Source: Mucilaginibacter sp.
GTDB taxonomy: Bacteria > Bacteroidota > Bacteroidia > Sphingobacteriales > Sphingobacteriaceae
Length of the DNA: 38,282 nt
Assembly: GCA_028287865.1 (NCBI GenBank)
Contig: JAQBOU010000122.1
Coordinates: forward strand, 1 to 38,282
Direction of reading: 5' to 3'
In this document: one piece after another, positions 12,327 to 17,500 of the stretch
Position numbering within the stretch: the first letter of the stretch is position 1
Layout of the letters: each line of letters starts with the position of its first letter
Made by a program: the position numbers and the translations under genes
Notes under the pieces: generated by a model
Database searches by the model: none
The model's input: only the letters and a program-made list of their open reading frames with translations
Told to the model about the DNA's origin: nothing

Positions 12327-12419
12327 GCCCCTCTAAATCTCCCCGGTAGGGAAGAATTGTTATTTATTTTATTTTCTTTTTTAAAAGTCCTCCCACCCAG
12401 GGAGGATTAGGTGAGGCTT
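12327..12419. repeat. C-rich/G-rich dispersed inverted repeat, copy A (between moxR and DUF58 gene)
   Basis: gcccctctaaatctcccc ... CCTCCC-ACCCA-GGGAGG attaggtgaggc; related to 30319-30373 and 34353-34381. Confidence 0.6.
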
Positions 12420-13473
12420 AAGGTACTTCTACTGCATTTAAGATCCCGGTTATGATATCTTCGGAGGTCATATTTTCAGCTTCGGCCTCATAGGTTAGCC
12501 CGATACGGTGCCTCAAAACATCATGACAGATTGCCCTTACATCTTCTGGTATTACATATCCCCTGCGTTTGATGAACGCATAAGCCTTTGAAGCTAACGC
12601 AAGGTTGATACTTGCCCTCGGTGAAGCCCCAAAGCTGATGAGGTTTTTATAGTTAGATAGCTTGTACTGGTCGGGATACCGGGTAGCAAAAACAATATCG
12701 ATGATGTACTGCTCTATCTTTTCATCCATGTAAACTTCTCTTACCACTTTACGCGCCCTGATTATATCGTCAGGATGAATAATGGCCGTCGGCTTTAACA
12801 TTCCCTGCGGTGCAATATTTGCGCGGATGATCTTCTTTTCGTCTTCCTTGTTTGGATAGCCAATTACCACCTTCAGCATAAAACGGTCAACTTGTGCTTC
12901 CGGCAACGGATAAGTACCTTCCTGCTCAATCGGGTTTTGCGTAGCCAGCACCAGGAAAGGGTTAGGCAGCATAAAAGTATTATCGCCAAGCGTCACCTGT
13001 CTTTCCTGCATAGCTTCCAGCAAAGCGCTTTGTACCTTTGCCGGCGCACGGTTTATTTCATCGGCCAGCACAAAGTTTGAAAAGATAGGACCTTTTCTAA
13101 CTATAAATTCCTCTTTCTTTTGGTTATAGATCATTGTTCCCACTAAATCAGCAGGTAACAGATCGGGCGTAAACTGGATACGGCTAAAATCGGCCTGGAT
13201 AGCTTTTGACAGTGTATTGATTGCCAATGTTTTAGCCAAACCCGGTACACCTTCTAAAAGGATATGACCATCAGCCAGTAAACCGATCAGCAGGCGCTCA
13301 ACCATATATTTCTGGCCGACGATCACCTTGTCCATTTCCATTTTAAGCAGATCAACAAAGGCGCTTTCGCGCTGTATCATTTCGTTAATTGCTCTTATAT
13401 CTGTTGAATATGATGAATTACCAGTCAAAGTATCTGCTGCAGGATACCCTGTATTACTATTTATTTCTTCCAT
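12418..13473 (-). CDS. MoxR family AAA+ ATPase
   Basis: Walker A GHILLEGVPGLAKT; FTPDLLPADLVGT; ATQNPIEQEGTYPLPEAQVDRF. Confidence 0.95.
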   Translation of the reverse strand: MEEINSNTGYPAADTLTGNSSYSTDIRAINEMIQRESAFVDLLKMEMDKVIVGQKYMVERLLIGLLADGHILLEGVPGLAKTLAINTLSKAIQADFSRIQFTPDLLPADLVGTMIYNQKKEEFIVRKGPIFSNFVLADEINRAPAKVQSALLEAMQERQVTLGDNTFMLPNPFLVLATQNPIEQEGTYPLPEAQVDRFMLKVVIGYPNKEDEKKIIRANIAPQGMLKPTAIIHPDDIIRARKVVREVYMDEKIEQYIIDIVFATRYPDQYKLSNYKNLISFGASPRASINLALASKAYAFIKRRGYVIPEDVRAICHDVLRHRIGLTYEAEAENMTSEDIITGILNAVEVP

Positions 13474-13741
13474 GAAGTATTTTTATTTGGAGTGGCAAAA
13501 TTAAACAGATGATCATTTTTTTGCCAAAGAAAAGTGAAGCATAAATGTTAAATTTTGTTAAATCCGATCGCTGACTAAATAATTTTTAAATGTCTTATTG
13601 ATAATTTGTGAAATTAACAATAAAAAACATAAAGCTCCTTTGAAGTTATTTAAAAAGCTCCTGTAAAATTTAAGGATCAGAAAAACAAGCAATAATATAA
13701 TTCAAATCTTTAAATGAGCGTTCGGAAAAAATGAGACAAAA

Positions 13742-13781
13742 AAAAGTGGCTCCGATCTTTCGGGGCCACTTTTATTTTTTT
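13742..13781 (-). terminator. Strong Rho-independent terminator (potentially bidirectional)
   Basis: AAAAGTGGCTCCG-ATCTTT-CGGGGCCACTTTT: 13-bp stem with one G-U, flanked by A/T tracts on both sides. Confidence 0.85.
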
Positions 13782-13802
13782 AAGTGGATTTAAGGCTTAA
13801 TA

Positions 13803-13880
13803 TTAAGCTCTTTTCCTTGCAGGAACAAGAGGTAATACGATACAAGCGATTAAAGCGGCAACTTCTAATACGATTAACAT
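13803..13880 (-). CDS. 25-aa single-TM microprotein MLIVLEVAALIACIVLPLVPARKRA
   Basis: Not in the supplied ORF track. Minus-strand ATG...TAA, hydrophobic helix followed by basic RKR tail, A-rich upstream leader, strong terminator ~22 nt downstream. Confidence 0.65.
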   Translation of the reverse strand: MLIVLEVAALIACIVLPLVPARKRA

Positions 13881-14384
13881 GACTTTAGTTTTTTAAGTAA
13901 TTATTGAACATTAAATTTTGTCAGAAAAACTAACCCTTTTATTTCTGTTAAACCTAATCTTTCAATTGAGGCTTAGGATTTAAGATTTGTATTTCCTGTA
14001 CTGGGTTAGGCTAAAAACATGCCATAACGTATTTTTTAATAAAAATCGTTTTTGGGTTGAAAAATTGCTAAAATTAAAATTTACTTAATTTTGAAATTCA
14101 CTTTAAAAAGTTGAAGATTTTCTGTTTTTGGTTTCAATTTTATGACTATTACCTGAAAATCTTGTTTAAAAAACCTAATAAATCCTGTTTGGGGGATATT
14201 TTCAGATAATTAATGAAAATAGATTGAGTTTTTGCAGATATAATCGCCGTTATCATAAAAATAAAAAACAAGCGAGTTTATAAATCTTTAAGGACATTTT
14301 TTTAGAGCTGGCAGTAGTGGTTCTTTTTAATTAAATTCTTTTTTGAGCCCTTTTTATTTTAATTATCATTTGAAATTAAATTTT

Positions 14385-14547
14385 TGACAATTTGTCATAC
14401 ATGCTGACAAGTGGCAAAATTCGATAAAAATGACTGCAAAAAAATACTGCCAAACCACTGACAAAATGACAAACGATTAAATTCATAGGTAAAATACCTG
14501 ATTCTAGCCTTGTGCCAATTTCATTGACGAATCAAAATTGGTTGTCA
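14385..14547. promoter_or_regulatory. Cluster of TGACAA half-sites including palindrome TGACAA-T-TTGTCA
   Basis: TGACAA at 14385, 14405, 14459, 14467; TTGTCA at 14392 and 14542. Confidence 0.35.
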
Positions 14548-14900
14548 ATATTGCTATTTCTGTAAAATTTGGTATTTAAAAGGAGTTATCGTTAAGCGGT
14601 ATATCAGTTTCAGGGCAAAATATTGCCAACTTAATTATTTAACAAATTGAACTTGAGAGTTGAAGTCGAAAGCAGCAGCTTAAGGAAGTCAAAAAATCTG
14701 TAATAAGGTTTAGGTTTGTTTGATACTTAAATCTAAGTTAAACTACAATAGTTTTATTATGGCTTAACTATTAATCTGATTGAAAGGTAAGAATGTATTT
14801 ATGTTTTTTAAAATATATTATACCAATACCGTTATTGTATATGTGAACGTCGCTTTTCGAGGTATATAGTTCAATATATGTCTACTTTTTGATATCAGTC

Positions 14901-15032
14901 TTAACCACAATTGTTCCTCGCGTTCCCCTCAATTTCTACATCAATTATTTTCCCATCAAATTTAGCAGTTGATATGGATATGCCTACCCAATCTGATGCG
15001 GGTGTTTTTTGAATATAGCTGAAAGCTCTAAG
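14901..15032 (-). pseudogene. Possible decayed coding remnant
   Basis: Minus-strand open stretch LRAFSYIQKTPASDWVGISISTAKFDGKIIDVEIEGNARNNCG* lacking a start codon; coding-like composition. Confidence 0.25.
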
Positions 15033-15144
15033 TTATTTCTCCTTACATAAATCTGACATGGATAAGTTACCGTAGATGTAATCAAAATGTAAAATTAAAT
15101 TCCTGGTTAAGTAATCCATCTTCTAACAATATAAATCAACTGCT

Positions 15145-15573
15145 ATGAAAAAAAACACATTCAAAAAAATCCTGGTTTACACGCTATCCAGTATTTTATT
15201 ATTGGTAATCGTGCTGTGCGTTCACATTTATATGGTCTATCGCCCCAAAGCACCCACTGCATCTTCAAGGGTAATGGCCCGTATAGATATTAAACAACCG
15301 ATAAATGATGCTGACGCCAATAAGATAAAAGTATTTATGGCCCATGAAAAGGGCGTAGACCATTACCTGGTGAATCCTGAAACCAGTATCGTTGTTTTCA
15401 CATTTCTACCCATAAAAACCACCGGGAATCGGGTTGTCGATGATTTTAAAGCAAGTTTCAGCTTCAAAGCCGACCGCTTTGTGCCAACAACAAACGATTT
15501 AAAAAGCAGCTGCCCTGTAGCCGCTTCATCTTACACTTATAAAGTTTATCAATTTATTTCTCAAATAATTTAA
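15145..15573 (+). CDS. Hypothetical membrane-anchored protein with HMA-like ferredoxin-fold domain
   Basis: N-terminal TM helix; MARIDIKQPINDADANKIKVFMAHEKGVDHYLVNPETSIVVFTFLP resembles the beta-alpha-beta pattern of heavy-metal-associated domains but has no CxxC. Confidence 0.6.
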   Translation: MKKNTFKKILVYTLSSILLLVIVLCVHIYMVYRPKAPTASSRVMARIDIKQPINDADANKIKVFMAHEKGVDHYLVNPETSIVVFTFLPIKTTGNRVVDDFKASFSFKADRFVPTTNDLKSSCPVAASSYTYKVYQFISQII

Positions 15574-16282: not shown

Positions 16283-16819
16283 ATGCATACAAATCAATCC
16301 ATTAATATTTCTAATTTATTTATAGCCGGTATCAATTATAAAAAAACAGATGCTGCTACAAGGGGGTTGTTTGCTATTAATTCCGATCAGTATGGAAACA
16401 TCCTGAAGCTAGCTCCATCCTGCAATATAGATTCATTATTTATACTATCTACCTGTAACCGCACTGAAATATACGGCTTTGCCGAACGGCCTGCGCAACT
16501 GATAAATTTATTATGTACACAAACCAAAGGCGATAGCCAAACTTTCACAAGCCTTGCCTATATTAAACAAGGCAATAATGCAATTGAACATTTGTTTAAC
16601 GTCGGCGCCGGGTTAGATTCTCAACTTTTGGGTGACTATGAAATTATCGGACAACTGAAACAGGCAGTAAAATTTTCAAAAGAACAAAATTTCATTAATT
16701 GCTTTTTAGAGCGTTTATTTAACAACGTACTGCAGGCATCCAAAACCATAAAAAACGAAACGCAACTAAGCGGCGGAACTGTCTCAGTTTCGTTTGCGGC
16801 GATACAGTATATTAAATAG
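16283..16819 (+). CDS. hemA: Glutamyl-tRNA reductase, N-terminal half (ends at in-frame TAG)
   Basis: LSTCNRTEIYGF catalytic Cys motif; GAGLDSQLLGDYEIIGQLK; GGTVSVSFAAIQYIK*. Confidence 0.85.
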   Translation: MHTNQSINISNLFIAGINYKKTDAATRGLFAINSDQYGNILKLAPSCNIDSLFILSTCNRTEIYGFAERPAQLINLLCTQTKGDSQTFTSLAYIKQGNNAIEHLFNVGAGLDSQLLGDYEIIGQLKQAVKFSKEQNFINCFLERLFNNVLQASKTIKNETQLSGGTVSVSFAAIQYIK

Positions 16820-16828
16820 CATATTAAA

Positions 16829-17500
16829 ATGGATGCCAGGAAAAAAATATTGATGATTGGCACCGGTAAAATAGGCCGCAATACCTGCAAAAATGTAGTG
16901 GACTATTTAAATACCACCAATATCACACTTATTAACCGTTCAGAAAAAAAGGCTATTGAGCTGGCTTCAGAGTTGAATTTAAAATATGCCCCGTTAAGTG
17001 ACCTCGCTAAGCAAATTAAATCGGCAGATATTATTCTGGCTGCCACCAATGCCAATGAACCCATTATTTTAAAAAAATACCTTGAAAACAATGGCGGGAA
17101 GCTAATTATCGACCTTTCTGTCCCCTATAATGTTGAAGCCGGAGTAGGTGAACTCCCCAATATTACTGTAGTAAACGTTGATGCACTTTCAAAATTGAAA
17201 GATGAAGCTTTACATAAACGTGAAGAGGAGGCCCCAAAGGCAAAGAAAATAATTGAACAGCAAATAGCAGGTTTTATGGAATGGTATACCATGCGTAAAA
17301 ATGCACCTGCCTTAAATGCTATTAAAGCTAAGTTGATTGCGATTTACGCCCAGCATCCGAAGGTATTAGCCAACACTATCGGTTTTTGTCCGGTTATGCA
17401 AGCCCAGCGGGTAATAAATGGTATCGCTAATAAAATGCGTACACAAAACCGGCAAGGCTGCCAATATATTGAAGCGATTAATGAGTTTATGTCCCTATAA
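16829..17500 (+). CDS. hemA: Glutamyl-tRNA reductase, NADPH-binding and dimerisation half, same frame as preceding ORF
   Basis: KILMIGTGKIGRNTCKNVVDYL Rossmann motif; start offset from 16283 is 546 nt (divisible by 3); intervening codons TAG CAT ATT AAA. Confidence 0.85.
   Translation: MDARKKILMIGTGKIGRNTCKNVVDYLNTTNITLINRSEKKAIELASELNLKYAPLSDLAKQIKSADIILAATNANEPIILKKYLENNGGKLIIDLSVPYNVEAGVGELPNITVVNVDALSKLKDEALHKREEEAPKAKKIIEQQIAGFMEWYTMRKNAPALNAIKAKLIAIYAQHPKVLANTIGFCPVMQAQRVINGIANKMRTQNRQGCQYIEAINEFMSL

Follow-up and report, generated by a model that had tools for sequence, protein, structure and literature searches.

We propose that a 25-codon gene on the minus strand of a Mucilaginibacter contig encodes a single-span membrane protein that is induced through RpoN (sigma-54) and modulates a membrane complex, either a sensor kinase or an ion pump, and we consider this overall reading to be fairly probable. 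The window, by which we mean the whole stretch of DNA that was analysed, is a whole contig of 38,282 nucleotides belonging to a 4.03-Mb genome that is 85% complete. The original prediction, which had picked out the gene, missed its sigma-54-type promoter, the paralogous long form of the protein and the fact that this long form is linked to an NtrC-type response regulator.

The small gene and its conservation

The ORF lies at 13803..13880 on the minus strand, with the ATG at 13880 and 25 codons followed by TAA, and its product is MLIVLEVAALIACIVLPLVPARKRA. The product has one hydrophobic helix, of approximately residues 2-19, with a peak hydropathy of 2.84 in a 17-residue window, and its C-terminal ARKRA is basic. 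The ATG, the TAA, the helix and the basic tail had all been described in the original prediction and are present at 13880-13803. When the intergenic region 13475-15144 was shuffled, only 1% of the shuffles contained an ATG ORF of 22-40 aa with a comparable helix and basic tail. It is noted that no further ORF of at least 60 aa is present between the start of moxR (13473) and the ORF at 15145, which bears out the earlier description of the stretch upstream of moxR as otherwise noncoding.

The next gene downstream of the small ORF encodes a moxR-type ATPase (12418..13473, minus strand) and forms a separate unit, for which the sequence suggests a Bacteroidota-type promoter candidate TAATTTTG at 13497-13504. 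We considered and rejected moxR as a functional partner: because the moxR neighbourhood is common to some copies only (L089, L090, L092) and is not kept beyond them, moxR is probably not functionally coupled to the small gene. Elsewhere in the window, a hemA-like frame (glutamyl-tRNA reductase-like, by sequence resemblance) at 16283-17500 on the plus strand contains one in-frame TAA at 16817-16819 (..QYIK*HIKMDARKK..), which may reflect either an error of sequencing or assembly in the draft genome or a real interruption.

Judging from the sequences, it is practically certain that the 25-aa ORF is a real gene, because it is conserved. With tblastn, clear homologues of equal length were recovered from the 198 family genomes searched; homologues occur in 39 named genome records, and the named relatives are nearly all Mucilaginibacter. 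With a profile built from 14 members, 94 strong short-form matches (the short form having 25-31 aa) were found in 82 of the 151 Mucilaginibacter genomes, the consensus of the family being MLxVLEVAALLAVIIxPLxPAKK and the residues M1, L5, E6, V7 and P17 being invariant. Eight loci carry tandem arrays of two or three copies spaced 128-137 bp. Outside Mucilaginibacter, convincing short copies were found only in a sister genus (G002, G044); weak matches at the level of the phylum or class and three matches in G135 were set aside as unlike family members.

The strong homologues keep the frame without internal stops, with pN of 0.20 and pS of 0.53 (pN/pS of about 0.38), and the entropies at the three codon positions of 58 distinct coding sequences are 0.66, 0.27 and 1.15. 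Between the window and its nearest relative, L052, the coding sequences share 94% identity; three of the five substitutions are synonymous and no indel is present. The tblastn check proposed with the original prediction, which looked to frameshifts or stops in homologous regions for its refutation, has thus given intact frames under purifying selection, and these, together with the conserved terminator and promoter described below, uphold the view that a small membrane protein is truly encoded here, by a gene with a transcription unit of its own. Searches of Pfam, NCBIfam and PHROGs gave no significant match for the short or the long form; this is a conserved small-protein family that was previously undescribed.

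The transcription unit and its sigma-54-type promoter

An intrinsic terminator hairpin with 14 pairs, 7 of them GC, is located at 13742..13773, 29 nt past the stop codon, where a terminator had been predicted. This is the strongest terminator-like site within 12500-15000, where it was listed on the plus strand; since the hairpin also folds on the minus strand (at -19 kcal/mol) and runs into eight T there, it could terminate transcription in either direction. Of 65 short copies, 53 are followed within 140 nt by a hairpin resembling a terminator, compared with 11 of 650 shuffles.

At the other end of the unit, family members share the upstream element TGGCAYRTTTTTAGY, in which ten bases separate GG from GC, the spacing of sigma-54 promoters. 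The window's -24/-12 element, TGGCATGTTTTTAGC (GG-N10-GC), is at 14010..14024 on the minus strand and starts 144 nt upstream of the ATG. Because the probable promoter begins there, the transcript is likely to be about 265 nt long and not about 150 nt, the length that had been expected. With the start site placed about 12 nt after the GC of the -12 element, the predicted 5' UTR spans 13881..13999 on the minus strand and ends in the A-rich ACTTAAAAAACTAAAGTC just before the ATG. Nearly every short copy keeps an A-rich leader adjoining the start codon; farther from the ATG, the 5' UTR differs among copies in both sequence and length and is partly lost in L084, L088, L125 and L111.

In a scoring scan, the weights of which were set after inspecting the sequences, the element was present in 95% of 78 family copies; the corresponding figures were 3.7% for shuffles and 9% for downstream controls. 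Short forms mostly have it 130-155 nt from the ATG, the others among them at about 50-115 nt, and the range for long forms is about 46-130 nt; in tandem arrays it occurs only before the first copy. All 15 bases of TGGCATGTTTTTAGC are identical between the window and L052, whereas the DNA upstream of the promoter is only 71% identical. When the plain pattern TGGCAYN4TTNG[CTA] was searched in about 890 kb of family loci, all intergenic matches preceded family members except that in L224, a locus that was fetched because of its TGGCA-type site. Of about 11 intergenic sites outside rRNA in three near-complete genomes, 7 are followed by family members, the repeated TGGCACGGAGTTAGC matches being what we take to be 16S rRNA from their resemblance. 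Across the window's genome, the pattern has 12 matches (14010-14024 among them) versus 14 for the reversed control, and since there is no genome-wide excess, the case for sigma-54 rests on position and conservation.

The rpoN gene is present in the window's genome (G000:C43, E of 5e-33, partial) and in 20 of 21 genomes. Two of the features expected of a sigma-54-dependent gene, a -24/-12 element at a fitting distance and rpoN, were thus found. A simple sigma-70 scan gave no excess over shuffles. As to an enhancer-binding activator, NtrC-type regulators are present and linked to many long forms, but a search upstream of the promoter for a conserved enhancer motif yielded only A/T-rich words. 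The copies lying within kdpD-kinase operons are without the -24/-12 element. On these sequence features, control of the small gene by sigma-54 appears very probable.

Two further sites of this type were noted. At L152/L224 (G000:C65, about 180-470), a 54-aa lipoprotein-like protein (MKKIYFPSVILLLLCLSSCSVIGGIFKAG...) begins 124 nt after the sigma-54-type site TGGCACTCCCTTAGT and is possibly a further member of the sigma-54 regulon. At L247 (G136:C8:86776), a protein of 188 aa that looks secreted (MKKIILSAAILLSCFTAKIASAQ...) begins 94 nt after TGGCATTATTTTAGC and is a candidate sigma-54 target outside the small-protein family.

It may be considered that a discrete unit with promoter and terminator, in which the nucleotides near the start codon are conserved, acts mainly as a regulatory RNA and that the peptide is incidental. 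In an Rfam scan with Infernal the known sRNA families gave only sub-threshold chance matches. We regard this reading as most improbable, because the codon-position entropies and the pN/pS given above place the peptide itself under selection, the 5' UTR varies in sequence and length, and in the long form the helix is retained although the RNA differs.

The long form and its linked regulators

The weaker profile matches revealed a second form of about 60-70 aa, which has the same helix followed by a conserved tail ending in the motif YAVNExGFLE or similar. The window's own genome has one long form, MKTMFFDLFEIFALMAVIILPFFLGGRKKEKTIRIPKNHNDTSRSRYAVNEHGFLEEIRHDKLSKHVQ, at G000:C115, with the same promoter type as the short form. 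For this protein AlphaFold2 gives one helix at 2-24 and a hairpin at 47-57, at low confidence (mean pLDDT of 70), so that the extra tail is predicted to carry a beta-hairpin.

Of 50 long-form matches, 26 are within 3.4 kb of an NtrC-type sigma-54 response regulator, all of one clade; for roughly half of the long forms, none is encoded close by. Those regulators near long forms that were compared have 60-96% mutual identity. Note that the clade is present in 143 of the 151 genomes of the genus at the cut-off used, and mere co-occurrence is therefore uninformative. Whether the linked NtrC-type regulator acts as the activator we can assert only tentatively, with a chance that we judge to be slightly below even. 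At L104, L099, L100, L102, L103 and L223, from several species, the gene order is long form, GNAT-like, M20-like peptidase, sigma-54 regulator and porin-like, the names being given by resemblance.

Some long forms are in kdp loci. In L213 the order is kdpB, kdpC, kdpD, histidine kinase, small gene and sigma-54 regulator, with KdpC, KdpD, HisKA/HATPase and Sigma54_activat confirmed by Pfam; in L219 the order is kdpD, histidine kinase and small gene, with a gap of 24 bp; and in L107 the long form is followed by the regulator and then by kdpA and kdpB, identified by sequence resemblance. The short form adjoins neither a kinase nor a sigma-54 regulator. Because the long-form loci point there, a Kdp-like two-component system, consisting of KdpD, histidine kinase and sigma-54 response regulator, is a likely control circuit.

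These loci also bear on the alternative that the protein is a true KdpF-type subunit or a direct regulator of the KdpABC potassium pump. KdpF, a subunit of that pump of about 30 aa (PMC3618439), resembles the family in length and in having one helix, it is likewise a single-span peptide and has been described as a possible partner of sensor kinases (PMC3618439), and long forms are near kdpABC or kdpD in L107, L213 and L219. By contrast, the family matches neither the Pfam KdpF model nor any other, most short copies are far from kdp, and no TGGCA-type site was found before kdpA in L107, and we consider this alternative unlikely.

Model of function

Based on our model of an RpoN-induced modulator, the small gene would stay off in the absence of a signal that turns on an NtrC-type activator, because sigma-54 promoters need an activator. 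The signal may be K+ or osmotic or envelope stress, as suggested by the kdp links. Activation would give a monocistronic mRNA of about 265 nt ending at its own terminator. The 25-aa protein would span the inner membrane once, with the short N-terminus outside and, following the positive-inside rule, the basic C-terminus in the cytoplasm. It would most likely act through contacts between helices, made by the invariant LEV motif (Glu6) and Pro17, and would either feed back on a sensor kinase or tune an ion pump or envelope complex. The invariant Glu near the outer end, the invariant Pro and the basic cytoplasmic end are consistent with docking of the helix onto a second membrane protein. That the protein is a modulator of a membrane complex is, taken by itself, a tentative proposal, to which we give somewhat less than an even chance.

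The same hydrophobic helix, early Glu and later Pro drive weak profile matches to GspG, ComGC and geopilin, raising the alternative of a type IV pilin-like or pseudopilin fragment. The sequence has no prepilin leader, however, and the spacing from Glu to Pro is 11, that in pilins being about 17. Moreover, no match to prepilin peptidase (PF01478) was found in the window's genome (85% complete), with weak matches in four of 12 other relatives. Pilin identity was rejected as a composition-driven similarity and has a negligible probability.

By contrast with modulation, it had been suggested originally that the product may resemble a type I toxin, i.e. a short hydrophobic membrane-damaging peptide of the Ibs, Ldr or TisB kind that is held down by an antisense RNA. 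The family does share length and hydrophobicity with small membrane toxins of the TisB, Ibs and TimP type (TimP: PMC7667032), and has the basic tail and the tandem copies; moreover, some such peptides, e.g. TisB and TimP (PMC7667032), are stress-induced. The suggestion nevertheless fares poorly, and we judge it to be quite improbable: Pfam, NCBIfam and PHROGs gave no toxin-family match; a sigma-54-type promoter is off without its activator; a conserved antisense target is unlikely in L084, L088, L125 and L111, because only a short 5' UTR is kept there; and the same helix is fused to a conserved tail, with a soluble character, in the long form, which can sit in a kdp or kinase operon.

For the proposed modulator, MgrB and KdpF offer the closest working analogies, with membership in neither family claimed. 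MgrB, of 47 aa, is induced by PhoP and inhibits the sensor kinase PhoQ (PMC8404706, PMC10576120). Similarly, ours would be a tiny single-span inner-membrane protein, and the long forms of the family are coupled to a two-component system; by contrast, no sequence similarity is claimed, the promoter is of sigma-54 type and not a PhoP box, the kinase contact is putative, and the family has many paralogues, several of them in tandem. In the E. coli Psp system, small membrane proteins are controlled by PspF and sigma-54. This parallel (for PspF, see PMC3162934) covers small envelope proteins under sigma-54 control, whereas there is no Psp homology, and the activator of the small family appears to be a receiver-domain response regulator and not PspF.

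Little is known, to our knowledge, about the roles of sigma-54 in Bacteroidota, and genes of such size are usually omitted from annotation. A comparative survey of sigma-54 regulons treats Bacteroidota by annotated orthologous groups, and the portion of its text that was searched mentions neither Mucilaginibacter nor small proteins (PMC12316311). Open-licence papers yielded nothing on Mucilaginibacter with sigma-54 and small proteins. In an older comparison, sigma-54 was associated with the cell exterior (PMC3162934), which agrees with an envelope role of the small protein.

Finally, we note a wider and rather speculative reading, in which a main dedicated output of sigma-54 in Mucilaginibacter would be a multi-copy family of tiny single-span proteins of the membrane feeding back on a Kdp-like kinase/NtrC-type circuit, a sigma-54 counterpart of MgrB-type control that is undescribed so far. 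Combining a single promoter type, very small membrane proteins and a two-component regulator linked to them, the family provides a compact and testable read-out, and a shared promoter, rather than length or annotation, can be used to find and validate small genes.
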